This document shows, in pieces, positions 3,289 to 41,186 of a stretch of DNA of 44,727 bases. Source of the DNA: an uncultured Lachnospiraceae bacterium (lineage in GTDB: Bacteria; Bacillota; Clostridia; Lachnospirales; Lachnospiraceae). The stretch is taken from contig CAMOGQ010000010.1 of NCBI GenBank assembly GCA_946614165.1, forward strand, positions 1 to 44,727. Direction: 5' to 3'. The notes under the pieces were generated by a model that worked only from the letters and a program-made list of their open reading frames with translations, did no database searches and was not told the DNA's origin. A program made the position numbers and the translations under genes. The stretch's first letter is position 1, and each line of letters starts with the position of its first letter.

Positions 3289-3648
3289 TTGAGCCAACAT
3301 ACTCACACACATATTGATAGTGATGGGCATATCATTACACACACTCATGAGGTGCGGGAATCACAACTTGATAGCCACAATCATTATCATTCTCCTGAAG
3401 AGAAGAAACGTCAACTAAATCGCGTATCGCGTGCAATTGGACATTTACAGCATGTTAAAGCGATGATAGAAAACGATGAAGATTGTTCCGATGTTTTGAT
3501 TCAAATATCTGCCGTCACATCAGCGCTCAGAAATCTCGGAAAAGAGATTATAAATGAGCATATGACACATTGTATTGTCCATGCTATTGAAGAAGGAAAT
3601 ACTGACGCGGTAGAGGAATTTCAGCTTGCGGTTAAAAAGTTCCTATGA
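3289..3648 (+). CDS. Metal-sensing transcriptional repressor, CsoR/RcnR/FrmR family
   Basis: Small all-helical DNA-binding metal sensor of 119 residues; the family forms tetramers that leave DNA on binding a metal (or aldehyde, for FrmR). Seen: a TTG start with GAAGGGAGG eight bases upstream; a His-rich N-terminal tail (ten or more His in the first 34 residues, e.g. THTHID and HNHYH); then the family core. The ligand set is Cys66, His91 and Cys95, with extra His94 and His98 in EHMTHCIVHA, a stretch resembling RcnR. Cys-His-Cys is the CsoR pattern, while the His-rich tail and the IVH context suggest nickel or cobalt. It sits at the left edge of the methyltransferase/ABC importer cluster, so I infer it regulates that cluster. 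The metal is not proven by sequence. Confidence 0.88.
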   Translation: MSQHTHTHIDSDGHIITHTHEVRESQLDSHNHYHSPEEKKRQLNRVSRAIGHLQHVKAMIENDEDCSDVLIQISAVTSALRNLGKEIINEHMTHCIVHAIEEGNTDAVEEFQLAVKKFL

Positions 3649-3705
3649 CAAGCAGTAGTTTTTGCCAATATTTTGCGGCTTTGCTGTTGGCATTTACTGA
3701 ACAAA

Positions 3706-4494
3706 TCACCTAGAGACTTCGTTTTTTGAAGCACGTACTAAAAACAAAGGCGTTGAAGCGAAGCTTATCTTTTCCTTCTCGGACCACACTTGCTGCCAGA
3801 TTTGATCATTGGACGTTACAGCTAATCCAAGCCCCGAAAGAGTTTTAACATCCCAGCCCGGCCTGACGATGGAAGACAATGGAACACGACGGGCGATATC
3901 CTCCATCACATCGAAATTATCGCCAATGTTCTCGTCTTTAAAGCCATGCTCCGCTGTATTCCGTCGATCTTGCGTAAATGCTTCCCTAGCAACGTCATCA
4001 AAGAGGTAGCTGTACCAGTTGGCGTCAAAGTTAAGCATCAATCCGCCAGGTTTTAATACCCGCGCCCATTCGGCATAAGCCTGCTCTGGATGAGGAAGAT
4101 TCCATGTTAAGTTGCGACTGACTATTACGTCGAAAGAAGCATCCTCAAAAGAAAGGGTCTCTGCATTCATTTCTACCCAGTTGATTTTGTCGGCCAAGTG
4201 GCCGGCATTCTTTTTTGCCTCAACGAGCATATTTGGCGTCAAATCAATAGCAGTCACATTACAACCCATCTCGGTTAAAATAATAGCAAAAAAGCCTGGT
4301 CCGGTACCAATTTCTAATACACGTAATGAGTCTGCTGTTCTCTCGGGAAATTGTCTCCTTATCTCCGTATAGAGACAATTACTCCATTTTCTGTGTTGCT
4401 CTGTAGTCAGTTCTTGCCTATTAACCTCTGAATAGCCGGAAGCCCGATTCGTCCAATACGCTCTGTTTTCAGATATTATCGTCTGTTGGGACAC
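3706..4494 (-). CDS. Class I SAM-dependent methyltransferase (paralogue 1)
   Basis: Methyltransferase of 262 residues with a Rossmann-type SAM site: motif I LEIGTGPGFFAIIL, an acidic residue at the end of strand 2 in VTAIDLTPNM, and the post-motif segment SRNLTWNLPHPEQAYAEW. It shares this last block, and LNFDANWY, with the methyltransferase at 5674, so the two are paralogues in one cluster. GTG start at 4494, overlapping the upstream metallo-amidohydrolase gene by 26 bp, which indicates translational coupling. Acceptor unknown. From its neighbours I infer modification of a metal chelator or of a ligand that the ABC importer brings in. Small-molecule O- or N-methyltransferase is the safe family call. 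Confidence 0.85.
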   Translation of the reverse strand: MSQQTIISENRAYWTNRASGYSEVNRQELTTEQHRKWSNCLYTEIRRQFPERTADSLRVLEIGTGPGFFAIILTEMGCNVTAIDLTPNMLVEAKKNAGHLADKINWVEMNAETLSFEDASFDVIVSRNLTWNLPHPEQAYAEWARVLKPGGLMLNFDANWYSYLFDDVAREAFTQDRRNTAEHGFKDENIGDNFDVMEDIARRVPLSSIVRPGWDVKTLSGLGLAVTSNDQIWQQVWSEKEKISFASTPLFLVRASKNEVSR

Positions 4495-5422
4495 CGTAAG
4501 TCACCATCGGTCCTTTCTCTATAATGTTTAGTGACGCACACTGATGCAGCAAAATGCCATTCTGTGGCGCATATTCGGTATACAGCACGTTGCCAAAATA
4601 GTCCCGGATCTCGCCTAACTTCTCTCCCTGGATGAAATAGTCGCCGGGTTGCTTCTCGGGATACCAACAGCCGGTACAAGGTGCATCATCACTGTACTCG
4701 AAAAGCTGCGTCTTGCTATAGGAGATTGGCTTACCGGGAAGCACCCCTAAGCAGCGCAGAATGTTTTTTACATCGGCCTTATCTGCCTCGATTTCATCGC
4801 GGCTGAACAGGCTCAGCTGTCCCCGCTCAATAAGTACGCTGGGTATGCCATGGACGGAAGCCAAATTATAGGCTCCGCCAGTGCGGCAACGGGAGCGGAC
4901 ATAATACTTCGTATTGATGCAATCAATCATTTTGCGGGCCTGTTCTTCTGCAGGAGTATCGCCCAGGTAGTAAGCGTAAGGGATTAACGTCTCATATCCA
5001 TCGCCGCTATGCAGGTCAATATAAGCGTCCACGTTTTGGATGAACACCTCAAAGAGCATGGCGGCGAGCCGATCGGCTTCACTGCCTTCCCAGTTGCCAG
5101 GAAAGACTCGATTCAAATTTTTCCCATCCTCGTAGACCATGGACATGGTGCGATTCTCGAAGCCGGATCGATTGGCAAGAGGCAGGATGATAACATTACC
5201 ATGCAGATCTCCCACATCCAGTTCGTTGCTGAGCTCAATTGCTGCCTGGATACCTACATATTCGGCGTTATGAATGCCTGCAGAGATGAGGACAGTAGGC
5301 CCCCTATGTTGTCCACAAAGCAGTACATGGGGTACATGCAGCTCAGTGCCTTCTACATGGATGTGATCCTTTAGGGTTTTCCCGGGTGTCAGCTTATGGC
5401 CGGCGATAACTTTGACTTCCAT
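4469..5422 (-). CDS. Succinylglutamate desuccinylase/aspartoacylase family zinc hydrolase
   Basis: Zinc-dependent M14-like amidohydrolase of 317 residues. The zinc ligands are visible: His51 and Glu54 in GIHNAEYVG and His138 in AYIDLHSGDG. The NLNRVFPG segment (about 102-109) matches the family's substrate-binding loop. Family members cleave N-acyl amino acids, releasing the acid and a free amine. The C-terminal third is a beta-rich domain as in other AstE/ASPA proteins. ATG start with GGAG six bases upstream. First gene of a minus-strand pair with methyltransferase 1, transcribed divergently from methyltransferase 2 and the importer. A role in opening an amide bond of an imported metal chelator is inference. 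Confidence 0.86.
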   Translation of the reverse strand: MEVKVIAGHKLTPGKTLKDHIHVEGTELHVPHVLLCGQHRGPTVLISAGIHNAEYVGIQAAIELSNELDVGDLHGNVIILPLANRSGFENRTMSMVYEDGKNLNRVFPGNWEGSEADRLAAMLFEVFIQNVDAYIDLHSGDGYETLIPYAYYLGDTPAEEQARKMIDCINTKYYVRSRCRTGGAYNLASVHGIPSVLIERGQLSLFSRDEIEADKADVKNILRCLGVLPGKPISYSKTQLFEYSDDAPCTGCWYPEKQPGDYFIQGEKLGEIRDYFGNVLYTEYAPQNGILLHQCASLNIIEKGPMVTYGVPTDDNI

Positions 5423-5482
5423 AGCGGCTCCAAATATACTTTAATAATTATATAAATTATCATGTGTCAGCTGGCAAAACAA

Positions 5483-5559
5483 GCCCCGAGGGGGGATATG
5501 TGATCTTGCTCTGCACACAAATAACGGCAAAAAAGCAAAATAATATCCCCCGGGGAGGC
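5483..5559. promoter_or_regulatory. Inverted pair of G-tract motifs in the divergent promoter region
   Basis: Between the divergent genes at 5422 and 5674 there are two related 19-mers in opposite orientation. The one at 5481-5499 reads AAGCC, a GC-rich core, GGGGG, ATAT. The reverse complement of 5543-5561 reads the same except for four core positions. G/C tracts flanked by AT-rich ends are the hallmark of CsoR/RcnR-family operators. The two copies can also pair through GGGGGATAT with ATATCCCCC. A minus-strand -10-like TATTAT lies at 5585-5590; two TTGACA boxes at 5610-5615 and 5631-5636 serve the plus strand poorly. The assignment as operator is inference. Confidence 0.5.
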
Positions 5560-5673
5560 TTACAAACGCAAGCGGCGGGCAGTATAATATTTTGCTGAAT
5601 ATGCTCTTTTTTGACATGGTGCGATTAGTGTTGACATTACCAGACAACACGGAATGCGAAAGAGGATTCAAAA

Positions 5674-6399
5674 ATGGATTATATTAAGCATCGGGTAATA
5701 CAATATTGGTCTCAGCGAGCGGAGGGCTTTGAGGCGCAGCGGCTTCGTGAATTTGCCAGTGAGAAGAAAGACCGCTGGCTTGCCGAGTTTCAAAAATATC
5801 TTTCTACGGATAAGTCGCTGCGTGTTCTGGACATAGGGACTGGAACCGGTTTTTTTGCCTGTGTTTTTGCTGCTGAAGGACATGAAGTAACCGGCATTGA
5901 TTTAACGCCGGATATGATCGAGCACGCTGAGCATATGGCCTCTATTCTTGGATTGACCGTTGATTTTCGACTCATGGATGCAGAGGCACCGGTTTTCCCG
6001 CCGGAAAGCTTCGATGTGCTGGTCACTCGTAACCTGACCTGGACGCTGCCGCATATAGAGAAGGCCTACCGGGAGTGGTACAAGCTATTGCGGCCGGAAG
6101 GTGTTTTAATCAACTTCGACGCGGATTACAGCGCCGCACTGGAGGATGGGAAGGAGCATGAACTACCCGCAAACCATGCTCATAAGCTGGTCCCCGATTA
6201 TATGAAAGCGGAGAATGATTCCATCACCGCGGAGGTCGGCGCATATCACGGGCCGAGGCCGCAGTGGGATGTGCAATTGCTCATCGAAGCGGGTTTTGAG
6301 CGCGTCACGGTCGATACGGGCGTATATAAGCGTATCTATGCTGAGATCGATGAATTCTTCAATCCCACACCGATCTTCACGATCGCCGCTTATAAGTAA
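5674..6399 (+). CDS. Class I SAM-dependent methyltransferase (paralogue 2)
   Basis: Methyltransferase of 241 residues: motif I LDIGTGTGFFACVF, acidic strand-2 end in VTGIDLTPDM, and TRNLTWTLPHIEKAYREWYK, which is nearly the same block as in the protein at 3706-4494. The C-terminal half diverges, so the two paralogues may act on different positions or substrates. It is the first plus-strand gene of the importer operon, 46 bp before the first permease, and divergent from the zinc hydrolase. Methyltransferases of this type are seen beside nickel/peptide ABC importers in anaerobic Firmicutes (general recollection, not checked here). Confidence 0.85.
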   Translation: MDYIKHRVIQYWSQRAEGFEAQRLREFASEKKDRWLAEFQKYLSTDKSLRVLDIGTGTGFFACVFAAEGHEVTGIDLTPDMIEHAEHMASILGLTVDFRLMDAEAPVFPPESFDVLVTRNLTWTLPHIEKAYREWYKLLRPEGVLINFDADYSAALEDGKEHELPANHAHKLVPDYMKAENDSITAEVGAYHGPRPQWDVQLLIEAGFERVTVDTGVYKRIYAEIDEFFNPTPIFTIAAYK

Positions 6400-6445
6400 T
6401 ACGTCATCTTATAACTTGATTTGCAACATAAAGTGAGGCATGACC

Positions 6446-7390
6446 ATGAAACACTACGCTCTCAGGCGGCTGCTGCAGTTGATCCCGATCTTGCTGGCAA
6501 TTACGTTTCTGTCATACGGCATGATGCGGATTGCGGGCAGTGATGTGGTCGAACAAAAGATGGAAAATACAAGTGGCACGGTCTCGCAAGAGATGATCGA
6601 TGCGGCAAGAGAGGAACTTGGCTTAGACAAGCCCTTTATCGTACAGTATTTTTCCTGGCTCGGCAATCTGCTCCGGGGGGATATGGGTACTTCCTATGTT
6701 TCCAATAAACCGGTCTTCTCAACCTTCGTTTCCAAGCTACCAGCCACTCTGCTGCTTACACTCGTCTCCATCCTGCTTACAGTGATCATTTCGATTCCGC
6801 TTGGGATATGGTCTGCCATCAAACAGAACAAGGCAACCGATTATGTGATTCGCACAGCAAGCTTTATTGGCAATTCTCTGCCGAATTTTTTTGTTTCTCT
6901 TCTTTTGATGTACCTGTTCGCCATTCGGCTGAACTGGTTTCCGGTCATTTCCAAAGGCGTCAGCCTGCAGAGCGTGGCTCTCCCATCCCTTACGCTTGCG
7001 ATAGCTATGTCGGCCAAGTATCTGCGGCAGGTTCGCGCGACAGTCCTTGACGAGCTGAGCAAGGACTATGTGCTTGGTGCAAAGGCAAGAGGTGTGAAGT
7101 TCTCGACGACCATGATGAAAAGCGTCATGAAGGCATCCCTCGTGACGATTATTACTCTGCTGACGCTTTCCATCGGCTCTCTGCTGGGTGGTACGGCTAT
7201 TGTCGAATCTATCTTCATGTGGGACGGCGTCGGGAAAATGGCAGTGGACGCCATCAATATGCGGGATTATCCGATTATTCAGGCATATGTCATGTGGATG
7301 GCTATTATCTACGTGTTGGTGAATTTAATCACCGATCTGAGTTATCGGTATCTTGATCCGCGGATCAGACTGGGAGGGATAGAACAATGA
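6446..7390 (+). CDS. ABC transporter permease, NikB/DppB type
   Basis: Inner-membrane permease of 314 residues for a nickel/peptide-class ABC importer. Six hydrophobic segments follow the family plan, starting with LLQLIPILLAITFLSY. The periplasmic loop after TM1 and the cytoplasmic EAA-type loop (KDYVLGAKARGVK) that docks with the ATPases are present. An ATG at 6440 lies only one base after GTGAGG, so I chose the ATG at 6446, seven bases from GAGG. It overlaps the next permease by ATGA, showing translational coupling. Peptide, nickel and opine-metal importers share this fold; context favours a metal complex. Confidence 0.9.
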   Translation: MKHYALRRLLQLIPILLAITFLSYGMMRIAGSDVVEQKMENTSGTVSQEMIDAAREELGLDKPFIVQYFSWLGNLLRGDMGTSYVSNKPVFSTFVSKLPATLLLTLVSILLTVIISIPLGIWSAIKQNKATDYVIRTASFIGNSLPNFFVSLLLMYLFAIRLNWFPVISKGVSLQSVALPSLTLAIAMSAKYLRQVRATVLDELSKDYVLGAKARGVKFSTTMMKSVMKASLVTIITLLTLSIGSLLGGTAIVESIFMWDGVGKMAVDAINMRDYPIIQAYVMWMAIIYVLVNLITDLSYRYLDPRIRLGGIEQ

Positions 7391-8244
7391 ACGAAACAGT
7401 CACGGTTCGCGTTCAAAAAGTAAAAAAGAACGGCATCAAGGCTCGCCTGATTTTTTTTCTGATTTTAGTTGCAGTTCTACTTCTCGTTACGATTTTTGCA
7501 GATAAGATTGTCCCCTACGATCCCTATGCGCAAGACCTGAGCCTTTCCAGGCTACCTCCATCCGCATCGCACTGGATGGGAACGGATCAATATGGACGTG
7601 ATGTTTTCTCGCGCGTTGTCGTCGGCGCACAAACCAGCGTCTTCTCGACGCTGGCACTCGTTGGGGTTATCTCCGTATTCGGAACTATCGTGGGAACGCT
7701 CTGTGGCTACTACGGCGGCGCGCTTGACTCTATTGTCATGCGCATCTCTGATGTCTGCCTGGCCTTCCCTGGGCTGGTCTTTGCGCTCGCGATCGCGGCG
7801 CTGCTGGGCGGAGGCGTCAGCAACGCGGTCATCGCACTGGCGGTCATAAGTTGGCCAAAGTACGCGCGTGTGGCTCGAAGCCAAACGCTTGCACTGAAAA
7901 ACGGGCCCTTTGTGTCAGCGGCACGGCTCTCCGGAAGCAGTTCCATGCAAATGATTCTGCGGCACATCCTGCCGAACATCATCGGCCCGATCCTGGTCAC
8001 AGCCATGCTGGATATTGGGACGATGATGATGGAGCTGGCAGGCCTGAGTTTCTTGGGCCTTGGTGCGCAGCCCCCTACAGCCGAGTGGGGCAATATGATG
8101 AGCGGCGGAAGAAGTATGCTCCAGACCTACCCATGGCTTGTTCTCTCTCCCGGTTTCGCTATTTTTCTGACCGTCGTGATTTTCAACCTCCTGGGAGATA
8201 CTGTACGAGACTATATGGACCCGAAAAACTCCCGCGCCCGTTAA
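7387..8244 (+). CDS. ABC transporter permease, NikC/DppC type
   Basis: Second permease, 285 residues, partner of the gene before it. It has one N-terminal hydrophobic segment after a basic tail, the family segment HWMGTDQYGRDVFSRVV (about residues 59-75), and the EAA-like loop FVSAARLSGSSSMQMILRHI. The start overlaps the stop of the upstream permease (ATGA). The C-terminus ends in LGDTVRDYMDPK, as usual for DppC/NikC. A short hairpin and the binding-protein gene follow within 50 bp. Confidence 0.9.
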   Translation: MNETVTVRVQKVKKNGIKARLIFFLILVAVLLLVTIFADKIVPYDPYAQDLSLSRLPPSASHWMGTDQYGRDVFSRVVVGAQTSVFSTLALVGVISVFGTIVGTLCGYYGGALDSIVMRISDVCLAFPGLVFALAIAALLGGGVSNAVIALAVISWPKYARVARSQTLALKNGPFVSAARLSGSSSMQMILRHILPNIIGPILVTAMLDIGTMMMELAGLSFLGLGAQPPTAEWGNMMSGGRSMLQTYPWLVLSPGFAIFLTVVIFNLLGDTVRDYMDPKNSRAR

Positions 8245-8250
8245 TTTGTG

Positions 8251-8270
8251 ATCTATAATTTTTTATAGAT
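8251..8270 (+). repeat. Intercistronic hairpin before the binding-protein gene
   Basis: ATCTATAA (8251-8258) and TTATAGAT (8263-8270) form a perfect 8-bp stem with a T4 loop in the 49-bp gap between the second permease and the binding protein. With the hairpin at 9872 it brackets the binding-protein gene, suggesting mRNA processing or differential stability. Confidence 0.5.
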
Positions 8271-8293
8271 AAAAAGAGGAAAGGAAGAAAAAC

Positions 8294-9856
8294 ATGAAAA
8301 AGATTCTTGCAATTCTGCTGGTGCTCTGCCTATCTGTCGGCGTTATGTCCGGCTGCGGCAACAGCAACAACACTCCCGGCACCGACGCAAAGAAGACCTT
8401 TGTTTTCGGTGATACCACCTTCAACGCCGAGAATGAGGAGCCGGACATCAACCCCCATTATGCTTATTCTGGCTGGCCTTGCATTCGCTATGGTGTTGGC
8501 GAGACATTGATGAAGATTGCGGATGACGGCACGCTCCAGCCTTGGCTCGCAGAGAGCGCTGTTAATGTGAATGAAACAACCTGGGAAATCGTAATCAAGG
8601 ATGCAGTTTGTTTTTCCAACGGGAAGAAGTGCGACGCTGCTGCTGTCAAGGCCTGTTTTGAGCATCTGATCGAGGTGCACGAGCGCGCCGCCGACAACCT
8701 GAAGATTGCTTCTATGGAGGCAGATGGTCAAAAACTGACCATCGTCACTTCAGAGCCAAACCCGATCCTGATGAATTACCTCTCCGAAGCTTATGGCTGC
8801 ATCATTGACATGGAAGTCGGCATTCCTGATAACGGCTGTGTTGTAGGTACCGGTCCCTACGTTGCCACGGAAGTGGTTACCGATGATCATGTAAACCTTG
8901 TCAAAAACACCAACTATTGGGATGGCGAAGTCCATATTGACGAGATTACTGTCCGTACCATCTCCGATGGCGATACTTTGGCGATGGCTCTTCAGTCTGG
9001 TGAGATCAACGCCGCCTACGGTATGGCCTACGCCAGTTACCCTCTCTTTGAAAACGATAATTATAAATTTACCAGCATCCAGACCAGCCGTTGCTTCTGG
9101 GGTATGGTGAACCTCCACGAGGAGAACCCCGGCTATTCGATCATGAGTGATCCTGCCGTCCGCAAGGCAATTGCCCTTGGAATCAATAAGCAGGGCTTTG
9201 TGGATGTTCTGCTCAACGGTTATGGCTACACCGCTACAGGTGCCTTCCCCGACAGCTTTGCTTTTGGTAAGGGAGTTAATACGGTTTCGTATGACCCTGC
9301 GCAAGCAAAGACCGCTCTGGAGGAGGCTGGCTGGGTTGACACCGACGGCGATGGTATCCGTGAGAAGGACGGTGTCAAGCTGACCATTCGCTGGCTGACC
9401 TATCCCAGCCGTCAGGAGCTGCCTTTGTTGGCCGAGTCTGCGCAGGCCACGCTCAAGGAAATCGGTATCGACGTTCAGATCAATAACACCAAGGATCACA
9501 ACAACATCCGCAAAGATCCCACGGCCTGGGATATCTGGGTCAGCGCCAACGTAAACGCTGGCTTGGGCGATCCTCAGAACTTCTTTGACACCTACTGCCT
9601 GGACGCCTCTATTAAGAACTCCGGCGGCCATCACAGCGACAAGCTGGAGGAGCTTGCTGCCCAGCTGCGCGGCACCTTCGATCCGGATGAACGCGCCAGG
9701 ATTGCTGTTGAGATGCAGCAGGAGCTTCTGGACGACAATTCCTATGTCTTCTGCTCTTTCCTGCGCATGAGCATGATCATGCAGTCCAATGTCACTGGTC
9801 TGGAGGCACATACCTGCGATTTCTATGAACTGACCGCAGATCTGGACATCAACTAA
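8294..9856 (+). CDS. ABC transporter substrate-binding lipoprotein (SBP family 5, nickel/peptide class)
   Basis: Extracytoplasmic solute-binding lipoprotein of 520 residues. Signal peptide of about 20 residues ending in the lipobox MSGC (Cys21). Family-5 hallmarks follow: the early LQPWLAESAVNVNETTWEI block, VVGTGPYVATEVV, and NTNYWDGEVHIDEITVRTI. The N-terminal EPDINPHYAYSGWPCIRYGVGE stretch has the spacing of the metal/ligand pocket seen in NikA-like proteins. The gene sits in the middle of the operon (B-C-A-D-E order) and is flanked by hairpins, consistent with higher expression than the membrane parts. Dipeptide or opine-metal complexes are alternatives to nickel. Confidence 0.88.
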   Translation: MKKILAILLVLCLSVGVMSGCGNSNNTPGTDAKKTFVFGDTTFNAENEEPDINPHYAYSGWPCIRYGVGETLMKIADDGTLQPWLAESAVNVNETTWEIVIKDAVCFSNGKKCDAAAVKACFEHLIEVHERAADNLKIASMEADGQKLTIVTSEPNPILMNYLSEAYGCIIDMEVGIPDNGCVVGTGPYVATEVVTDDHVNLVKNTNYWDGEVHIDEITVRTISDGDTLAMALQSGEINAAYGMAYASYPLFENDNYKFTSIQTSRCFWGMVNLHEENPGYSIMSDPAVRKAIALGINKQGFVDVLLNGYGYTATGAFPDSFAFGKGVNTVSYDPAQAKTALEEAGWVDTDGDGIREKDGVKLTIRWLTYPSRQELPLLAESAQATLKEIGIDVQINNTKDHNNIRKDPTAWDIWVSANVNAGLGDPQNFFDTYCLDASIKNSGGHHSDKLEELAAQLRGTFDPDERARIAVEMQQELLDDNSYVFCSFLRMSMIMQSNVTGLEAHTCDFYELTADLDIN

Positions 9857-9871
9857 ACACAGCACTATTGA

Positions 9872-9897
9872 CGAGGGGCGGGTTCGCCCGCCCCTCG
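9872..9897 (+). repeat. Strong hairpin with TTCG tetraloop after the binding-protein gene
   Basis: CGAGGGGCGGG (9872-9882) and CCCGCCCCTCG (9887-9897) form a perfect 11-bp stem closed by TTCG, the very stable UUCG tetraloop class. No T-tract follows, so it is unlikely to be a full terminator. Its position just after the binding-protein gene and before the ATPase genes fits a 3' stabiliser that raises binding-protein mRNA. Confidence 0.7.
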
Positions 9898-9982
9898 CCT
9901 CCCGAATGGATATGGGTTCAGTTCGGAAACCCTTTCCGCATTGAGCCGATGACCATTCGTATCAATCAAAAGAGGTCGTGCT

Positions 9983-10771
9983 ATGGCAGTATTATTGGAT
10001 TATCAACATGTGGAGATCTCCTTCAACGGAAACGCTGTGGTCCATGACGTGAGCTTTCAACTCCATCCGGGTGAGATTCTTGGCCTGGTGGGCGAATCGG
10101 GTTCTGGCAAATCCACACTGGTCAAGGCCGCCATGGGTTTGTTGGGCAGCAGCGGTATGGTTACAAGAGGCGATATCTGGTTTGAAGGGAAGAACCTCCC
10201 GGATCTTAGCGACAATGAGATGCGGCATATTTGCGGAGAGAAGATCGGCATGATTTTTCAGGACTGCGGTGCGTCCTTGAGCCCTATCCGCACCATCGGC
10301 GAGCAGATCATGGAGAGCATGGCGGCCCACCGCAAGGTTGACGTCGCAGCGGCGAAGGCCACCGCTATGGAACTCTTCGACAAGCTCCATTTCAAGGACG
10401 GTGAGCGAGTCTGGAACAGTTATCCCTTTGAGCTCTCCGGCGGCATGAATCAGCGCGCAGGTATTGCAATCGCAATGCTGATGAATCCTGTAATCCTCAT
10501 GGCAGACGAGCCGACCTCTGCGCTTGATGTGGCCGTGCAGCGGCAGGTCGTGGAGGAAATGCTGAATGTCCGGAAGGTATTTGGCACGGCTATCATTATT
10601 GTAACACATGATATCGGTGTCGTCTCCGCCATGGCCGACAGCATCCTTGTGCTTCAGGAGGGTCATGTGATGGAGTACGGTAAAGCGAAGGACGTGCTGG
10701 AAAACCCGCAGAACGCATACACAAAAAAACTGCTGAGCGCCGTGCCCAGATTGAGGAGGGAGAGGCTGTAA
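9983..10771 (+). CDS. ABC transporter ATP-binding protein, NikD/DppD type
   Basis: Cytoplasmic ATPase of 262 residues. Walker A GESGSGKST (about 36-44), Q-loop FQDCGASLSPI, signature LSGGMNQRAGIA and Walker B VILMADEPTSALD followed by the switch His in IIIVTHDIG are all present. The length is close to NikD and shorter than DppD/OppD, which have a longer C-terminal tail; this supports a metal-type importer. It ends one base before the start of the second ATPase. RBS-like AAAAGAGG before ATG. Confidence 0.9.
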   Translation: MAVLLDYQHVEISFNGNAVVHDVSFQLHPGEILGLVGESGSGKSTLVKAAMGLLGSSGMVTRGDIWFEGKNLPDLSDNEMRHICGEKIGMIFQDCGASLSPIRTIGEQIMESMAAHRKVDVAAAKATAMELFDKLHFKDGERVWNSYPFELSGGMNQRAGIAIAMLMNPVILMADEPTSALDVAVQRQVVEEMLNVRKVFGTAIIIVTHDIGVVSAMADSILVLQEGHVMEYGKAKDVLENPQNAYTKKLLSAVPRLRRERL

Positions 10772-10772
10772 A

Positions 10773-11531
10773 ATGGAACCGATCCTAAAGGTCACAGACC
10801 TTTCCAAATCCTTTTCCCGCGCCGGGAAAAATGAATTCTTTGCTGTCGACCATGTGAGCTTTGAGGTCATGCCCGGTGAGATCCTCGGTATTGTAGGCGA
10901 ATCCGGCTCCGGCAAGTCTACCATCGCTAAACTGATCACTCGGCAGATTGATGCCACAACAGGTACGATCGAGATCGACGGGCAGGATATCACCAAGCTG
11001 ACCGGGCGGCAGTTGATCCCGGTTTATGCAAAGGTCCAGATGGTCTTTCAGACTCCGGCCGGCTCCTTTGATCCCCGGCGGACTCTGGGAGATGGGATCT
11101 GCGAAAGCCTGCGAAACAAGGGCATATCGAAAGTGGAACGCGAAGCCAAGGCACGTGGATTGCTTGAGCAGTGCGGCCTCTCTAGTGAATTTTTGGAACG
11201 TTATCCACATCAGGTCTCCGGAGGTCAATGCCAGAGGGCTGCAATCGCACGGGCGCTGATGTGCGATCCAAGAATTCTCATCTTCGACGAGGCAACCTCG
11301 GCACTGGATGTGACAGTACAAAAGCAGATCATCGAGCTCCTGCAGCAGCTACAAAGGGAGAAGAAACTCGCCTATCTCTTTATTTGCCATAATCTGGCTC
11401 TGGTGCAGCAGTTTTGCGACAAGGTACTGGTACTTTATGACGGAAAGATTGTCGAATATGGACTTCCAGATGATGTTATTCTGTATCCTCAGTCGGAATA
11501 CGCAAGGCGCTTGGTTGATGCTATTTTTTGA
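10773..11531 (+). CDS. ABC transporter ATP-binding protein, NikE/DppF type
   Basis: Second ATPase, 252 residues, pairing with the previous one. Walker A GESGSGKST, Q-loop FQTPAGSFDPRRTLGD, signature VSGGQCQRAAIA, Walker B ILIFDEATSALD and switch LFICHNLALV are intact. Starts one base after the NikD-like stop. Last gene of the importer operon; the hairpin at 11616-11638 lies about 85 bp downstream and probably stops transcription before the convergent relaxase gene. Confidence 0.9.
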   Translation: MEPILKVTDLSKSFSRAGKNEFFAVDHVSFEVMPGEILGIVGESGSGKSTIAKLITRQIDATTGTIEIDGQDITKLTGRQLIPVYAKVQMVFQTPAGSFDPRRTLGDGICESLRNKGISKVEREAKARGLLEQCGLSSEFLERYPHQVSGGQCQRAAIARALMCDPRILIFDEATSALDVTVQKQIIELLQQLQREKKLAYLFICHNLALVQQFCDKVLVLYDGKIVEYGLPDDVILYPQSEYARRLVDAIF

Positions 11532-11615: not shown

Positions 11616-11638
11616 GGGAGCGGTATGTTACCGCTCCC
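11616..11638. terminator. Hairpin between convergent importer operon and relaxase gene
   Basis: GGGAGCGG (11616-11623) and CCGCTCCC (11631-11638), 7-base loop. The relaxase stop codon is in the loop. T-rich runs follow on the plus strand, and TATAAAAAG on the minus strand, so it may work in both directions. Confidence 0.6.
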
Positions 11639-13352
11639 TTTCACAATCTTTTTGCTTTTTACGCTGCGGTTGCTGATCCCGCTGCGCACGTTCCTTCTCC
11701 AGTTCTTTGCGTCTCAGGCGTTGGATAAGAGATCGGGGATCTTCTTCGCCCAGCAGCTCCGCCACATCCCGCTTCGCGCCGATCATAGTCCAGAAGTCAT
11801 ACTTGTCTCCATAGGCGGACTGGATCTTGTTTTCGGCAGAGGCCTCCTTCTGCGGCCGGATCTCAAGCTGCGCCATAACAAGCTCGTCGGGGTCAAAGTC
11901 TGCCGCCTGAGTTTTCAGCTCGTTGTATTCCGCCAGAGCGGCGTTCAGCTCGGCGGTATATTTCTGCTCCTGCTGTTCCAGCTTTTCGAGATTGGCTTCC
12001 ATAGCGGAAACGTCCTTTTTCACCGTGGCAAGACCGGTGTTCTCCGAATAATCTAGCATGGCGAGAAGATGCTTCTTTTCGGAGCGGAACTCTTCCCGTT
12101 CTTCCGTCAGCTCCGCAATGCGACGGGAAAGATCCCGGTGTTTAGGAATATTGAGCATCGGCGTCGCTTTCTTCTCGGCAAGCAGCGCGATTCGCTCTTT
12201 GCCCTTTTCCTTGATCTGTCCGGCGATCCGGGAATAACGCTCCAGCCCCGGCCTCATGACGTCAAGGCTCTTTGCCAGCCTGCGTTTGCCCGACAGGATA
12301 TATCCGAGCTGGTACTTGAAAATGATCATCTTTTCCCGCACGGACTCCATGGCTTCCGCAAGCGCGGGAATCGTGTTCTTGACGGCATCCATCAGCTTTT
12401 TAACCTGCGCCTTGATCTCTCGCATCAGGGCATTGTCCCGCTTGATCTGCCGGTTCAGCTCGCAGCGGTCGGACACGACGCCTTTTGCCTCCAGCGCACG
12501 GGCTGCAACGCCCTCGTGGATCGTCGGCTGTTCATCACGGCCCTGTTCGGCGAAGCTCCGGTGATCCACACGCTCATCAAAACCGTACCGTTCCAGAGAA
12601 TGGTTGACCGCATTGGCCCAGGCTTCCCGCCAGAGGACAAGCTCTTCCTCGCTGTTCCAGCGTTCGGAGATGGGGTTCTGCCTGCCGTATTTCGTACTCT
12701 TCGGATGCTTGGAAAGGCGGGTATAACCTTTTGCCTCAGCTTCGGAGGAAGCCATATATTCCTTCTTTCTGCCGACCTTGTACTGGTACTGCTTTTCCCA
12801 GCCGTCGGCCTGTGCCTCTTTGAACTCGGCAGCGGTAAAGCCGCGTTCCTCGCCGTTCCGTACACAGAGATATTCCTTCTCCGTCTTGTACTGCCAGGTG
12901 CCGTCCGGGTTCAGAGGGCGTACCGTCAGCAGGATATGGGCATGGGGATTGTGGCCGGGCGGATCGGGATCGTGGATCGCCACGTCCGCACACATGCCGT
13001 CAGATACGAAGCTCTCCTCAATAAAATCCGACAGCAGCTCCTCCCACTGTTCCGGTGACAACTCGACGGGCAGGGCCGGAACGAGCTCACGGGCCAGGCG
13101 GCTGTCCTTCGTCTTTTCATTTTCCTCCACGGCATTCCAGAGGATCTCCCGGTCCTGCCATTCAGGCGGAGCGGATTCCGGAAGAAATACCTGTTCCCAG
13201 ACGAGGCCGCCCTTGCGGGTGTAATCATGCTGTACGCCGTCGTAATCATTGTAGATGGCGCTGCAGCTCAGATAGGCCGACGCCGCGCAGGCGGAACGGC
13301 CTGCCCCACGGCTCACGACCTTTGCTTCCAGATGATAGATCGCCATAATCAT
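11628..13352 (-). CDS. MobA/MobL family relaxase
   Basis: Conjugative relaxase of 574 residues that would nick oriT and lead single-strand transfer with help from another element's secretion system. The N-terminus AIYHLEAKVVSRGAGRSACA is typical of MobA/MobL (MobQ) proteins. The metal-binding histidine motif is visible as HDPDPPGHNPHAHILLTVRP (about 153-172). The C-terminal half from about residue 300 is rich in Lys, Glu and Ala with heptad-like spacing and is probably coiled coil. ATG at 13352 has AAAGGA five bases upstream; an ATG two codons later is also possible. Last gene of the minus-strand transfer region, directly after the structured sequence at 13383-13760. Confidence 0.92.
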   Translation of the reverse strand: MIMAIYHLEAKVVSRGAGRSACAASAYLSCSAIYNDYDGVQHDYTRKGGLVWEQVFLPESAPPEWQDREILWNAVEENEKTKDSRLARELVPALPVELSPEQWEELLSDFIEESFVSDGMCADVAIHDPDPPGHNPHAHILLTVRPLNPDGTWQYKTEKEYLCVRNGEERGFTAAEFKEAQADGWEKQYQYKVGRKKEYMASSEAEAKGYTRLSKHPKSTKYGRQNPISERWNSEEELVLWREAWANAVNHSLERYGFDERVDHRSFAEQGRDEQPTIHEGVAARALEAKGVVSDRCELNRQIKRDNALMREIKAQVKKLMDAVKNTIPALAEAMESVREKMIIFKYQLGYILSGKRRLAKSLDVMRPGLERYSRIAGQIKEKGKERIALLAEKKATPMLNIPKHRDLSRRIAELTEEREEFRSEKKHLLAMLDYSENTGLATVKKDVSAMEANLEKLEQQEQKYTAELNAALAEYNELKTQAADFDPDELVMAQLEIRPQKEASAENKIQSAYGDKYDFWTMIGAKRDVAELLGEEDPRSLIQRLRRKELEKERAQRDQQPQRKKQKDCERER

Positions 13353-15548: not shown

Positions 15549-17633
15549 TTATGCGATTTTTTCTTCCGCCGCGTCCTGCGCGGCATTCACTTCTTCGATT
15601 GATCCTATACGCGGAACGGTTGCCTTTTCTTTCTCCGCCCTTTGCTCGGCTTTCCTTTTGATCTGTGCCTCATACCGGCATTCATCGGAGCAGTATTTCT
15701 TATCGCTCCTTGTTGTTGAGAAGACCTTGCCGCAGTTTTGACAGGTACATTCCCGGCTTCGTTTCTCTGCGGCCTGCTGCCGGTAATATTTCACCTGGCA
15801 GTTATGGCTGCAATACAGTGCGTCAGAACGCTTGGCCTCAAACTCCTTGCCGCAATACTTACAGGTGCAGACATACTGGTCGCCGATGGAACGCTCACCG
15901 GCCTTGATCTGCTGATAACGTTCCCGGCTTTTGATGCGGTGACGCCTGAGCTGTTCCTGCCGCTTTTCTTCCTCCGGCGTAAGCACCGGGGCCGGAAGTC
16001 CAAACTGCCCGATGAAGCTCAAGTAGATGTCCACCTGCTGCACCCGTTCACCATCCACCTTTTCCGGCGCGTGGACGATGATCTTTTCGATGAATTCGTT
16101 GATCATCGGCGTGGTCAGCTCGGAGAAATCCGTATACTTCTTCGCCAGGGAGAGGAACTGCTCGGCGCGGGCCGTATCTTCCTCAAAGGAGGCGATCCGG
16201 GCCTCGGCTTCGGCAACGGAAATGTCAAGCTCTTTCTGTTCTGTCTCATAGTCCGCCAGCAGGCTGTCAAAGCGTTCGGCGCTGATCCGGCCTACGGCGA
16301 AGGATTCATAGAGCTTTTTGATGATCCCGTCCAGCTCGTCCCGGCGTTTCCGGTCCTTGTTCAGCTTTCTACGGGCATCCTTTGCGGCGTCCTGCTGACG
16401 GATCTGCGAGGCTGCCCGTACCTTCTCAAAAAACTCTTCCGGATTGGAGATTGCGTAGGCGCTGACCGTTCGGATGGTTTCGAGAATCAGGGTGCGGAGG
16501 GCCTTCGTCGTGATGAAATGTCCCTTGCAGGCTTTATACCGCTTCTGGCGGGACAGCGTATAGGTGGAGCAGTCGAAGAAATCCGACGGGAAATTCCCCT
16601 TTTCCTTATCGCCCCTTGTGCGGTGATTGTACATCTTTTCCCCGCAGTCGGCACAGTATACAAGGCCGGTCAGGGGATTCGCTACGCCGAAGGTGTCAAT
16701 ACGCTTGGGCGTTTTCCGAAGCTTCTGGGCAAGCTCCCAGGTCTCCCGGTCCACGATGGGCTCATGGGTATCCTTAAAGATCAGCCAGTCCTCCTTCGGA
16801 TTGGGAACACTGGTCTTGTCCTTGTAGGATTCCTTGTGGGACCGGAAGTTGACGGTATCGCCCATATACTCCGGTTTGGACAGGATGGTTCCGACGATAT
16901 AGCCGCTCCAGTTATACGGGCTCGGGAAATCCTCTTTGTTTTTCCACATCCCGATGCCGCGTCTGGCAAAGTAGACGGCCGGGGATTCCACCTTGTCGTC
17001 AAAGAGCATCCGGGCAATCTCATAGGGCCCGTAGCCCTCAATGGTCAACTGGAAGATCCTGCGGACGACTGCCGCCGCTTCCTCGTCGATGATCCACTTG
17101 TGTTTGTCGTTCGGGTCTTTCCTGTACCCGTAGATGGCGCTGTTGGTGGTTCGCTTGCCGGATTCGCCCTTCACGCGGATGGCCGTTTTCTGCTTACGGC
17201 TCAGATCACGCAAATACCACTCGTTCATGATATTCAGGAACGGGATGAATTCGTTGCTGGTCTGATCGTTGGAATCTACGTTGTTGGCGATGGCGATGAA
17301 GTGTACCCCGTGCTGCCGGAACATGACCTCCGTGTAGAAGCCGGTCTGCAGGTAGTCACGCCCGATCCTGCTCATGTCCTTACAGAGGATATGGGCCACT
17401 CTGCCTGCTTCGATATCGGCAATGAGCTGTTTCCAGGCGGGGCGCTCGAAATTACCGCCGCTCCAGCCGTCGTCCGTATAGTGGACGATGTTCTCATAGC
17501 CCTGAGCTGCAGCGTATGCTTCGAGGTACTTTTTCTGATTGATGATGGAGTTGCTATCCCCGGTCAGGTCATCGTCACGGGATAGTCTTTCATAAAGAGC
17601 TGTGATCTTTCCTTCAGTCTGCATTCGTGCCAT
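15549..17633 (-). CDS. Large serine recombinase (TnpX-like)
   Basis: Site-specific recombinase of 694 residues expected to excise and integrate the element. The N-terminal resolvase domain starts ITALYERLSRDDDLTGDS, with catalytic Ser18, and includes HILCKDMSRIGRDYLQTGF. It is followed by the recombinase domain, a zinc ribbon (YCADCGEKMYNHR) and a long coiled coil (about 420-510). An unusual C-terminal extension carries two FCS/MYM-like zinc fingers: CKYCGKEF...YCSHNC and CQNCGKVF...YCSDEC. The start overlaps the TnpW stop as TAATG. Length and partner genes match the Tn4451/TnpX group. Confidence 0.93.
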   Translation of the reverse strand: MARMQTEGKITALYERLSRDDDLTGDSNSIINQKKYLEAYAAAQGYENIVHYTDDGWSGGNFERPAWKQLIADIEAGRVAHILCKDMSRIGRDYLQTGFYTEVMFRQHGVHFIAIANNVDSNDQTSNEFIPFLNIMNEWYLRDLSRKQKTAIRVKGESGKRTTNSAIYGYRKDPNDKHKWIIDEEAAAVVRRIFQLTIEGYGPYEIARMLFDDKVESPAVYFARRGIGMWKNKEDFPSPYNWSGYIVGTILSKPEYMGDTVNFRSHKESYKDKTSVPNPKEDWLIFKDTHEPIVDRETWELAQKLRKTPKRIDTFGVANPLTGLVYCADCGEKMYNHRTRGDKEKGNFPSDFFDCSTYTLSRQKRYKACKGHFITTKALRTLILETIRTVSAYAISNPEEFFEKVRAASQIRQQDAAKDARRKLNKDRKRRDELDGIIKKLYESFAVGRISAERFDSLLADYETEQKELDISVAEAEARIASFEEDTARAEQFLSLAKKYTDFSELTTPMINEFIEKIIVHAPEKVDGERVQQVDIYLSFIGQFGLPAPVLTPEEEKRQEQLRRHRIKSRERYQQIKAGERSIGDQYVCTCKYCGKEFEAKRSDALYCSHNCQVKYYRQQAAEKRSRECTCQNCGKVFSTTRSDKKYCSDECRYEAQIKRKAEQRAEKEKATVPRIGSIEEVNAAQDAAEEKIA

Positions 17634-25200: not shown

Positions 25201-26058
25201 TTAAATGGCATTTTTTCGGATTTCTCCCGGGGTCCTCCCGAAATGCTCTGAGAACATTCGCCTGAAGAGCTTGTAGTTGTTAAAACCGTGCCGTTCCAGA
25301 AGATATTTAAGAGGTATTTCCGTTTCCACCAGGTCCTGATAAATCCTGCCCAGGCGGTATTCATTCAGGTACTGCAGATAGGTCATTCCTGTGTTTTCTT
25401 TGAATATGTGACAGAAATAATTGACCTGAAGATGGAGCTCCCCGGCTACATCGCTGAGCGTGACCGGTTCCATATAATGCTTTTCCGTATAGGCCATAAC
25501 AGCGGAAAGGCGCTCTCTGTTTTTCCGGCTGGAAGCGGGATCTGATGAGAAATAACCGGCATCAGAAAATACGGAATATACCTCATAGAGGATATCCAGA
25601 AGGACGCCGGCACTTTTCAGACCTGCGGCAGGACCGTTTTCCTCCTTCAGGTCCATGATTTTAAAAAGCAGCTTCATGATACGCTTAAGACCTGCCTGGC
25701 TGGCTTCATCCTCCGTAAACGGATCGCAGATAATTCTGTTTTTTCCAAGAGTCCCCAGGCAGTCAGAAAAAGCATCCGCAGGAATCTGCAGAAGCAGGGC
25801 GCTGTTGCCTTTTGTGCTTAAGGTGGAATGGACGGAATAAGGAGGGAGAATAATACAGTCGCCTTCATGCAGGTGGTACTGCTTTCCTTCGATGTTTACC
25901 ATAAGTTCGCCCTCTGTCAGAGAAATGATCTCCAGGGAATCATGCCAGTGGGAAGGGACAAATCTCTGGTCATTCAGAAAGCTTTCAAAATGCGCTCTTC
26001 CGTTGACAGCCAGATTGAATTCTATGATTTCATAAGGTTCGGAGCCCTGCTTTTTCAT
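25201..26058 (-). CDS. AraC family transcriptional regulator with cupin sensor domain
   Basis: Regulator of about 285 residues. The N-terminal cupin (about 30-110) includes FVPSHWHDSLEIISLTEGEL and ILPPYSVHS. The C-terminal double HTH is of AraC type: VTLSDVAGELHLQVNYFCHI and the end motif YKLFRRMFSEHFGRTPGEIR. The frame is open another 50 codons upstream, but AGGAG lies just before the ATG at 26058. Divergent from the GH5-GH43-GH42 operon with back-to-back promoters (26141-26198), so it is very likely the operon's sugar-responsive activator. Confidence 0.88.
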   Translation of the reverse strand: MKKQGSEPYEIIEFNLAVNGRAHFESFLNDQRFVPSHWHDSLEIISLTEGELMVNIEGKQYHLHEGDCIILPPYSVHSTLSTKGNSALLLQIPADAFSDCLGTLGKNRIICDPFTEDEASQAGLKRIMKLLFKIMDLKEENGPAAGLKSAGVLLDILYEVYSVFSDAGYFSSDPASSRKNRERLSAVMAYTEKHYMEPVTLSDVAGELHLQVNYFCHIFKENTGMTYLQYLNEYRLGRIYQDLVETEIPLKYLLERHGFNNYKLFRRMFSEHFGRTPGEIRKNAI

Positions 26059-26140
26059 CTGCTTCTCCTTCTTTGATCTGAACGGCGCACACTGCCGGGC
26101 AAAAACAAAAAACGTAAGATTGACCTGTTTATTCCATAAG

Positions 26141-26169
26141 ATTATAGCTTGTATATACTTCGAAAACAA
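26141..26169 (-). promoter_or_regulatory. Promoter of the AraC regulator gene
   Basis: Minus strand: -35 TTGTTT (26164-26169), 17-bp spacer, -10 TATAAT (26141-26146). It abuts the divergent glycosidase promoter. Confidence 0.65.
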
Positions 26170-26198
26170 TTGATACTGGTAACAGATACAAATAATAT
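26170..26198 (+). promoter_or_regulatory. Promoter of the GH5-GH43-GH42 operon
   Basis: Plus strand: -35 TTGATA (26170-26175), 17-bp spacer, -10 TAATAT (26193-26198), about 70 bp before the GH5 start. The -35 boxes of the two divergent promoters touch, so one bound regulator could act on both. Confidence 0.65.
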
Positions 26199-26271
26199 TC
26201 AGTAACATCCGGCGGCCATGCCCCGGTTACAGACTGAATATTTCACCGGAGAATCTGCGAGGAGGATACGT

Positions 26272-27399
26272 ATGAAAAAGATCAGAGGAGCTAATCTCGG
26301 CAACTGGCTGGTACTGGAAAAATGGATGGAACCGGAACTGTTCGAAGATACCGGTACAGAAGATGAGACCTGGCTTGTACGCAGGATGGATCCCGAAAAA
26401 CTGGCGGAGCGGATGAAGCAGCACAGGGATACCTATGTTACCGAAGAAGATTTCGCTGCCCTCTCCTCCCACGGAGTAAATCTGGCCAGGATCCCGGTTC
26501 CCTACTTCATTTTCGGCGACCGTCCTCCTTTTATCGGCTGCGTCGAATATCTGGATCAGGCCTTTGAGTGGGCTTTGAAATACGATATCCAGATCATGAT
26601 CGACCTGCACACCTGCCCCGGCAGTCAGAACGGCTATGACAACGGCGGTCTGACCGGTGTCTGCAAGTGGTGCAAAGATCCCGCGGAGGTGGAATTTGAA
26701 CTGACAGTTCTGGAACGTCTGGCGGAGCGCTATGGCAGCCATCCCGCTCTTTACGGCATCGAGGTGCTGAACGAGCCCATCAGCTGGCTGGTCTATTTCA
26801 CGGCTCCTTCCACAGGCAAAGCCGAGAATCAGGAAGAAGCCAAAGGTTCCGGCCATGTTCCCATGCCTTTCCTGAAGCAGTTCTACAGAGACGCCTACAG
26901 AAGGCTCAGGGCCATCCTGCCTCCCGAAAAGGTCATTGTATTCCACGACGGTTTCCGCCTGGGAGCCTGGAAGGACTTTTTCGTAAAGGAGGGCATGCAG
27001 AACGTAGCCCTGGATACCCATATCTATGTCTTTGCCATGGAAAACTTTGTTCCCATTCATAAGCCCTGGGTCTACCAGCTCTATATCAATTCTCAGAGAC
27101 GGCTGGTGGAGAAAGCGGCCAGGTATACTCCCGTGATCGTAGGCGAGTGGTGTATCTCCAACAAATATGCCCTTGCCGCGGAAACGGATGAAGAAAAGAG
27201 CCGCCGCTTCAGAGAACTGGCAAAGAAGCAGCTGAAGGCCTGGTCGGCCAGTGCCGGTTTCATCTACTGGAACTACCAGCTCAGGCGGGACCTGAACCTT
27301 CACATGGATGAGGAATGGAAGGACAGCTGGGACCTCCGCCGCTGCTGGAAGGAAAAATGGATGCCGGATTTCAAGGGAAAATCCCTTCGCGAAGAATGA
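26272..27399 (+). CDS. Glycoside hydrolase family 5 (glucanase-like)
   Basis: Cytoplasmic TIM-barrel glycosidase of about 375 residues with no signal peptide. N-terminal RGANLGNWLVLEKWMEPELF resembles exo-beta-1,3-glucanase-like GH5 enzymes. The acid/base Glu is in YGIEVLNEPISW (about residue 170), and the nucleophile Glu is in VIVGEWCISNK (about 290). IDLHTCPGSQNGYDNGG is the usual substrate-side loop. GAGGAGG lies six bases before the ATG at 26272; an in-frame ATG at 26218 lacks a ribosome site. First gene of the operon. Beta-glucan or another beta-linked oligosaccharide is the likely substrate. Confidence 0.88.
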   Translation: MKKIRGANLGNWLVLEKWMEPELFEDTGTEDETWLVRRMDPEKLAERMKQHRDTYVTEEDFAALSSHGVNLARIPVPYFIFGDRPPFIGCVEYLDQAFEWALKYDIQIMIDLHTCPGSQNGYDNGGLTGVCKWCKDPAEVEFELTVLERLAERYGSHPALYGIEVLNEPISWLVYFTAPSTGKAENQEEAKGSGHVPMPFLKQFYRDAYRRLRAILPPEKVIVFHDGFRLGAWKDFFVKEGMQNVALDTHIYVFAMENFVPIHKPWVYQLYINSQRRLVEKAARYTPVIVGEWCISNKYALAAETDEEKSRRFRELAKKQLKAWSASAGFIYWNYQLRRDLNLHMDEEWKDSWDLRRCWKEKWMPDFKGKSLREE

Positions 27400-27423
27400 T
27401 ACATACGCCGGTTAAAACATGAA

Positions 27424-27455
27424 CTCTGCAGGCCGGATGCCTCCTGCCTGCAGAG
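27424..27455 (+). repeat. Intercistronic hairpin between GH5 and GH43 genes
   Basis: CTCTGCAGGC (27424-27433) and GCCTGCAGAG (27446-27455) form a perfect 10-bp stem with a 12-base loop and no T-tract. Possible mRNA processing or stability element within the operon. Confidence 0.5.
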
Positions 27456-27480
27456 CATTCAACATACATGGAGAAAAAAT

Positions 27481-29112: not shown

Positions 29113-29181
29113 AGATTTCTGACAGAACGGATCAGGGACTGATCCCAGACAGAAAATCATATCAGTAAAGGTGTTAAAACA

Positions 29182-31206: not shown

Positions 31207-31263
31207 AGAACAGAGCTTTAAGAAATCCTGAAATCTCAAAAACTATACCATCGAATCCGGGAT

Positions 31264-31307
31264 GCTGCCGGACCGCTGCAGAGCGCGGTCCGGCAGCTCC
31301 TTTTTTT
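31264..31307 (+). terminator. Terminator of the GH5-GH43-GH42 operon
   Basis: Perfect 13-bp stem GCTGCCGGACCGC / GCGGTCCGGCAGC (31264-31276 with 31285-31297), 8-base loop, then TCC and seven T. Confidence 0.92.
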
Positions 31308-31445
31308 ACCTTTTTTCAAACTTATGTATCACCTCATTCATTATCCGTAATTTCGGACATTCCCTATGCTACTTATATAAATGCAGAAACAATCTGCCTG
31401 TACTAAAGTCGGAAAAATAGCTGAAACGAAATAAAGGAGAATGAA

Positions 31446-31913: not shown

Positions 31914-31934
31914 TGACAAAAAAAAGGAAACGAT

Positions 31935-32852: not shown

Positions 32853-32867
32853 ATTCCTTTATATAAA

Positions 32868-32912
32868 AACACCCTGTCATAGATCATCATATCCATGACA
32901 GAGTGTTTTTTT
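32868..32912. terminator. Bidirectional terminator between DprA-like and GNAT genes
   Basis: AACACCCTGTCAT (32868-32880) pairs with ATGACAGAGTGTT (32895-32907), one mismatch, 14-base loop. A T-run follows on the plus strand (32906-32912), and A-rich sequence precedes it for the minus direction. Confidence 0.85.
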
Positions 32913-32916
32913 ACCC

Positions 32917-33366: not shown

Positions 33367-33411
33367 AGCGGTCCTCCGGGCCTGGGCACAAGGTCCCGGT
33401 CTCTGCCCTAA

Positions 33412-35440: not shown

Positions 35441-35449
35441 AAAAAATTA

Positions 35450-38047: not shown

Positions 38048-38062
38048 GAAGGAGAACCGGGT

Positions 38063-41186
<3,124 letters not shown>

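Follow-up and report, generated by a model that had tools for sequence, protein, structure and literature searches.

A conserved nickel- or cobalt-type importer with its own methyltransferases in gut and rumen Clostridia, a possible metal-chelate uptake system

Why should a bacterial importer of the nickel type be kept together with two methyltransferases and an amidohydrolase? The question is raised by contig CAMOGQ010000010.1 (assembly GCA_946614165.1) of an uncultured Lachnospiraceae bacterium, of which we analysed positions 1 to 44,727, hereafter the window; the genome comprises 3.78 Mb in 288 contigs and is 87.65% complete. Nine intact open genes at 3289-11531 encode a CsoR-like metal sensor, two class I S-adenosylmethionine (SAM) methyltransferases (MT1 and MT2), an amidohydrolase (AspA) and a five-gene NikABCDE importer. 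Hydrogenases and B12-dependent enzymes depend on the supply of nickel or cobalt, the acquisition of which by gut and rumen Clostridia is to our knowledge poorly known, and we know of no dedicated methyltransferase or amidohydrolase in classical nik operons. Our results suggest that these bacteria possess a conserved nickel/cobalt importer with methyltransferases of its own, often joined by an amide-cutting enzyme, and that a metal-carrying molecule is chemically modified by them. We put the probability of a nickel chelate-uptake system (cobalt in some relatives) with dedicated ligand-modifying enzymes at roughly 45%.

The evidence for this reading begins with gene linkage, where an importer accompanied by a methyltransferase of its own is the arrangement that keeps recurring. 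A contig scan with MT2 returned 30 loci, mostly from metagenome-assembled genomes of Oscillospiraceae and Ruminococcaceae, many labelled ruminant. Nik genes adjoin MT2 in 28 of them, the exceptions being L054 and L045, the contig of which stops directly behind MT2 (L and G are our numbers for loci and genomes). The importers beside MT2 fall into three identity classes (about 77-95, 50-72 and 30-50% to the window) and three gene orders, and it therefore seems that one importer was replaced by another while the enzymes were retained. At E 1e-25, a profile search detected the methyltransferase family in 28/391 genomes of the class and 24/299 of the phylum, with the window's own genome (G000) and G172 present in both samples. 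We scanned 64 regions, namely most of these matches (without G652 and G664:C20) and the regions of seven same-genus matches. Nik permease genes lie within 8 kb of the methyltransferase in 39 of the 64, while a further five regions have FecCD, four an energy-coupling factor (ECF) importer of the MptD kind, three DUF4198 only and one csoR only. L161 was tallied as 'none' since its methyltransferase falls under the threshold, its Nik genes notwithstanding, and L168, a short contig with csoR and a NikA gene, counts as neither Nik nor 'none'. Around 20 control methyltransferases, whose regions were scanned whole and not only to 8 kb, there were 0 Nik, 0 FecCD and 0 DUF4198 genes and 1 ECF gene. The initial annotation of the locus had named methyltransferases standing mostly apart from the importer as evidence that would speak against it; with some metal-uptake gene in 51/64 regions, including the three with DUF4198 only, this is not what we find.

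Importers other than Nik are also accompanied. L038 contains a FecB-FecCD-ATPase-MTa-MTb unit behind a copy of the operator described below, and L053 two ATPases followed by EcfT-like, ECF S component and MTc genes behind another copy, which lies inside the over-long 5' end of the first reading frame. MTa is related to MTc (25%), while MTb and MT1/MT2 belong to other groups. In the four MptD-type ECF loci (L131-L134), which also contain MATE, a gene for an ATC_hydrolase (PF14196, scanned in L133; the L-2-amino-thiazoline-4-carboxylate hydrolase family) is situated 4-116 nucleotides from the methyltransferase gene, and this would fit a thiazoline-like ligand. As the methyltransferases have no obvious export signal and are tied to unrelated importer classes, with hydrolases and exporters, their substrate is best explained as a metal-carrying small molecule. 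Separately, we observed in L038 (12403-19568) Nik, CobW-like GTPase, ATP-binding cassette (ABC) ATPase, DUF4213/DUF364 and FecBCD genes, four methyltransferases and several operator copies in a single locus.

The features of the window locus are as follows.

3289-3648, plus strand: CsoR/InrS-like metal-sensing repressor with a His-rich N-terminus (Pfam Trns_repr_metal, 88.7 bits; best PDB match InrS 5fmn)
3706-4494, minus strand: MT1, class I SAM methyltransferase (Pfam; AlphaFold2 model with a mean predicted local distance difference test (pLDDT) of 96.3; clade support 100/99)
4469-5422, minus strand: AspA, AstE/AspA-type zinc amidohydrolase, overlapping MT1 (Pfam AstE_AspA_cat, 90.3 bits)
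5481-5497, plus strand: putative CsoR/InrS-like G-tract operator AAGCCCC-N3-GGGGGAT (strict pattern)
about 5543-5561, minus strand: putative second operator copy, inverted and degenerate (relaxed pattern only, missed by the strict pattern)
5674-6399, plus strand: MT2, class I SAM methyltransferase, paralogue of MT1 (Pfam; clade support 100/96)
6440-7390, plus strand: NikB-like permease (NCBIfam Opp2B, above cut-off)
7387-8244, plus strand: NikC-like permease (NCBIfam Opp2C, above cut-off)
8294-9856, plus strand: NikA-like solute-binding lipoprotein (Opp5A_nikA, 314 bits, below the cut-off of 600; best PDB match 3t66)
9983-10771, plus strand: NikD-like ATPase (Pfam, NCBIfam)
10773-11531, plus strand: NikE-like ATPase (Pfam, NCBIfam)

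The gene families proposed in the initial annotation are confirmed by Pfam and NCBIfam (Trns_repr_metal, Methyltransf_11/25 twice, AstE_AspA_cat, SBP_bac_5, BPD_transp_1 twice and ABC_tran twice), except that it counted eight genes where nine are present. Judged by its permeases, the predicted importer is of the Opp2/Nik type, NikB passing NF045470 (Opp2B, 366 vs 350 bits) and NikC NF045474 (Opp2C, 318.8 vs 300 bits). The best PDB match of NikA is the nickel-binding protein 3t66, followed by S. aureus NikA. The five-gene set thus resembles known NikABCDE/Opp2 nickel importers, from which the window differs by its added methyltransferases and amidohydrolase. The available part of one report describes S. 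aureus NikA as recognising a Ni-His-thiazolidine complex (PMC12086673). A His-His pair at 446-447 of NikA was considered as a family feature and rejected, as among 65 aligned sequences only the closest orthologues have it. The locus might also be read as a peptide or amino-acid importer linked by accident to unrelated housekeeping methyltransferases, since the SBP_bac_5 family takes peptides too and NikA stays under its NCBIfam cut-off. We find this very improbable in view of the linkage to three importer classes, the common operator, the riboswitch and HypB contexts given below, and the 0/20 controls with Nik genes.

The two methyltransferases are paralogues with 36-38% identity, as first annotated, and the RNLTW block noted in both characterises the family, with R127 and W131 identical in 77/77 aligned sequences. 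In the tree of these 77 sequences, MT1 falls in a clade of 13 rows and MT2 in one of 20. One member of each clade occurs in the window and in eight other tree loci (L037, L064, L065, L164, L169, L170, L172 and L177), and we therefore regard MT1 and MT2 as a pair conserved within this branch of the family; outside it a single methyltransferase is common. None of the named NCBIfam methyltransferase families (CpaM, UbiE, ArsM and others) was over its cut-off among the best 25 of 47 rows, the top score being that for CpaM (71.2 for MT1 and 54.8 for MT2 against a cut-off of 180). Direct metal(loid) methylation of the ArsM kind was rejected: conserved cysteines are expected of ArsM, unlike the present family, in which there is no conserved Cys column (highest 17/77), and the ArsM models scored far under cut-off. 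As an aside, L136 (4409-5899) and L137 (4204-5691) each encode one protein of about 497 amino acids made up of two methyltransferase-like halves, adjoining a small, His-rich protein that matches no Pfam family and has a relative in L125.

AspA has as its nearest characterised family DoeB (N-acetyl-diaminobutyrate deacetylase). It shares the Pfam domain of the DoeB/AstE-AspA deacylases and has solved relatives in PDB 3cdx and 6twl, but at 77.9 bits it is far under the DoeB equivalog TIGR02994 (cut-off 402.7) and forms a subfamily of its own, tied to Nik importers. The subfamily was found in 13/391 genomes, eight of which also have the methyltransferase family (28/391; P 2.5e-7, or 2.2e-6 without the window's own genome). 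The Nik importer lies in the cluster of AspA in 10/13 genomes, all but G094, G082 and G214.

Which metal is carried? L052 encodes a HypB over the equivalog cut-off of TIGR00073 (257 vs 121 bits), and in L172 a HypB, also over the equivalog cut-off, follows 1.1 kb behind MT2. Also nearby in relatives are DUF4198 and two putative heavy-metal chelation domains, DUF4213 and DUF364. An operator copy heads a MATE-DUF4198-HypB-DUF4213/364 series in L052 and L059 (the latter layout by tblastn), and in L066 an operator is followed by MATE and HypB, with MATE split over frames and DUF4198 not found. These contexts, together with the InrS-like sensor, make nickel the probable metal in the lineage of the window, and HypB in relatives and the same sensor suggest that NikABCDE may import Ni(II).

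In other relatives cobalamin riboswitches (RF00174) suggest cobalt. AspA-Nik units are headed by riboswitches as riboswitch-AspA-LysR-NikBCADE-CsoR (G353), riboswitch-CsoR-AspA-LysR-NikBCADE (G149), riboswitch-NikBCADE-MATE-AspA (G284) and riboswitch-NikBCADE-MATE with AspA divergent (G442), and riboswitches also head methyltransferase units in G290, G447, G531, G597, G562 and G269. G290 and G447 have cbiK-like and cbiL-like genes nearby, named by inspection of the sequences and not by family search. A same-strand riboswitch lies within 7 kb upstream of 9/64 counted methyltransferase hits, one of the nine (G430) probably in a different unit, compared with 0.51 expected from riboswitch density. 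Thirteen hits were left out of this count: two in the window's own genome, five in the riboswitch-free G084, G205, G264, G303 and G404, and six in genomes outside the riboswitch search (G337, G425, G652 twice, G687 and G722). These units resemble cobalamin-riboswitch cobalt operons, from which the window differs in having no riboswitch; the single one of its genome lies outside. Control of NikABCDE by B12 elements in C. tetani and D. hafniense is noted in the portion of an earlier study available to us (PMC2667541). NiCo riboswitch control was rejected, as this riboswitch is over cut-off in 11/51 genomes and none of the 12 places listed is near a methyltransferase locus.

In L210 of G149 (4863-8087), NifH-like, NifD-like, FecB, FecCD and ATPase genes are placed between a cobalamin riboswitch upstream and a methyltransferase-family gene downstream. 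This arrangement, and the permease of the FecBCD partners, which scores close to BtuC models but under their cut-offs, could point to tetrapyrrole salvage, where nickel or cobalt is recovered from corrinoids or F430-like compounds and the enzymes act on the macrocycle. This is the least probable of the readings considered: none of the scanned window proteins is a tetrapyrrole enzyme, and a Nik-type binding protein and HypB, as found in the lineage of the window, are more in keeping with small chelates.

How might such a system be controlled? Classical nik operons are under NikR, instead of which the window has a CsoR-type operator. The His-rich CsoR/RcnR-type sensor of the initial annotation is borne out by its Trns_repr_metal domain and by H34, C66, H91 and C95, which align with H21, C53, H78 and C82 of InrS, positions that we take to be the nickel ligands of InrS. 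Correct, too, was the observation of shared G-tracts between the divergent operons. The promoter region 5423-5673 holds the palindrome listed above in one strict and one looser inverted copy, and such pairs recur in relatives; the strict copy is the only exact match in its genome. The relaxed pattern is found in 16/16 corresponding intergenic regions of relatives, hand-picked from the 30 loci, mostly as two inverted copies. The strict pattern occurs in 38/94 methyltransferase regions (25/30 and 13/64) as opposed to 0/20 controls. In 18 whole genomes the exact operator was found 11 times, compared with two matches of a reversed control pattern; ten copies lie upstream of methyltransferase/Nik units, and the eleventh precedes a MATE gene of G172 by some 55-75 bp. 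The first gene of the operator-headed unit is a small gene in G005 and an AraC-type gene in G149. Four same-genus genomes without the methyltransferase family gave zero exact matches. Other copies, for example directly 3' of nikE in L039, L053 and L061, are not assigned to any gene. From this distribution we suggest that the CsoR-like protein may bind the operator. The window system shares the Pfam family, the four InrS positions and a G-tract palindrome with InrS/CsoR/RcnR sensors, and is different in being tied to an importer and enzymes, not only to an exporter.

CsoR-family repressors usually leave the DNA on metal binding and normally act in metal excess. The InrS-like sensor with its G-tract operator, the operator upstream of MATE genes and the heavy-metal P-type ATPases nearby in L043 and, as read by eye, in L221 could thus be taken as a response to excess, induced at high nickel or cobalt, with methylation and MATE export detoxifying the cell and the Nik-type transporter importing a protective ligand or peptide. 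We hold this to be improbable, since the cobalamin riboswitches of relatives imply repression at plentiful B12, which fits acquisition, and HypB serves nickel enzymes.

In the chelate-uptake scheme that we favour, NikABCDE would import nickel or cobalt bound to a small organic ligand, MT1 and MT2 would methylate the ligand in the cytoplasm, and AspA would cleave an amide bond of the ligand or of its precursor. These modifications could weaken or break the chelate and hand the metal on to metal-binding proteins, HypB-type ones among them; cells with a MATE or EamA exporter might then expel the modified ligand, and the genes would be controlled via the CsoR/InrS-like operator. That importers each have their own methyltransferase, and that many regions consist of importer and methyltransferase only, would fit capping of the ligand after import. 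We further speculate on a stricter form, which we regard as doubtful: methylation-gated release, in which each Nik, Fec or ECF metallophore importer has its own SAM methyltransferase that caps the chelator and frees nickel or cobalt, whereupon MATE expels the spent ligand. Metallophores are known to release their metal by reduction or hydrolysis, to which methylation, if it does free the metal, would add a new step.

Alternatively, MT1, MT2 and AspA might build or tailor a ligand that MATE or EamA exports and NikABCDE recovers with nickel or cobalt, like an opine system without CntM; if so, the genes would represent an undescribed nickel/cobalt metallophore family. MATE or EamA genes belong to or adjoin the units of G284, G442, G389, G149, G353, G531 and L052/L059, and MATE, by blast label only, in L221-L223. 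A NAS-like gene (nicotianamine synthase, NAS/CntL, PF03059; 31.1 vs 27.1 bits) stands behind NikBC-MT-NikADE-EamA in G531, and in G536 a weaker one adjoins MT-NikABCDE (25.1 bits, under cut-off and better matched as Methyltransf_31). Zincophore clusters with Opp- or FecCD-type importers and EamA, MFS or MatE exporters are described, in the part of the source at hand, with extra methyltransferases of unclear role (PMC7438024). We nevertheless judge a self-made metallophore somewhat unlikely, as most methyltransferase regions have importer and methyltransferase without such exporters (MATE within 8 kb in 8/64), the window has no MATE or EamA at E 1e-3, and a NAS-like gene is over cut-off in only 1/20 genomes.

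The nearest known kind remains the opine-type (Cnt) metallophore systems (staphylopine, pseudopaline, bacillopaline and yersinopine). The alikeness lies in the Opp- or FecCD-type importer with an EamA or MatE exporter in the present relatives, and in the extra methyltransferase of some Cnt clusters; the differences are the nickel/cobalt contexts, the amidohydrolase and the lack of a NAS/CntL match in the window's own genome. The absence of nicotianamine synthase noted initially holds, with 0 PF03059 matches in that 87.65% complete genome, one relative over the Pfam cut-off and one just under, and one control genome positive. The staphylopine dehydrogenase CntM (PF10100) matched in 0/20 genomes, and in no control genome either. 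With an opine-like transporter repertoire and no synthase in its own genome, the system is filed as a variant of chelate-dependent nickel/cobalt uptake and not as a Cnt system. In literature searches of open-licence papers we recognised none describing the methyltransferase-AspA-Nik set.

A number of results weigh against chelate uptake with dedicated enzymes. No importer was found within 8 kb in 12/64 methyltransferase regions, and as many regions are mutually related the counts are of non-independent events. The initial annotation proposed to examine whether its genes recur together across Clostridia; methyltransferase, Nik and often AspA do so, while csoR is an occasional neighbour (labelled in 5/83 regions, plus L209 and L220), and MT1 and AspA are present in only 16/30 and 14/30 of the close MT2 loci, several on short contigs, so that neither is essential to the importer. 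AspA is near only 3/64 methyltransferase regions, and that of L183, tallied as present, is a fragment in its frame (191 amino acids). NikA is under both nickel equivalogs (NF045468, 314 vs 600 bits; TIGR02294, 168 vs 393 bits). The fold search with MT1 gave generic methyltransferases only, with a template modelling (TM) score to the query of at most 0.59 among the 50 matches listed. The exact operator is not matched in G281, G352, G370, G301 and G353, which do have the methyltransferase family, nor the strict pattern in L040, L047, L060, L062 and L065. Release of a CsoR-type repressor on metal would make the genes metal-induced, the opposite sign to that of a starvation-induced importer. Finally, the whole window contains no MATE, EamA, HypB, DUF4198 or FecCD gene at E 1e-3 (MFS was not among the queries), and such partners are read from relatives. 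MATE genes, moreover, are widespread, and part of their adjacency could be fortuitous. Even so, the metal-chelate uptake theme of the initial annotation is supported, methyltransferases and amidohydrolase being recurring partners of the importer, and the conserved operator, two fixed methyltransferase lineages and amidohydrolase subfamily, with importers and exporters of several classes, amount to a testable regulon.

Some observations were made on the surroundings of the locus. A strong G+C-rich inverted repeat, noticed by eye, lies between nikA and nikD (9870-9899) and may govern how much of the binding protein is made. The gene cluster borders a mobilizable element, as directly 3' of nikE follow a MobA/MobL relaxase and a serine recombinase (Resolvase/Recombinase/DUF4368) at 11628-13352 and 15549-17633. 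Flavodoxin_4, CMD-family and SDR genes are located 5' of the cluster (139-2810), and relatives of the CMD and flavodoxin genes are also close to the methyltransferase loci L040 and L048. Further along the window (25201-39661) lie polysaccharide-use genes (GH43, GH42 and GH35-like) with an AraC regulator.

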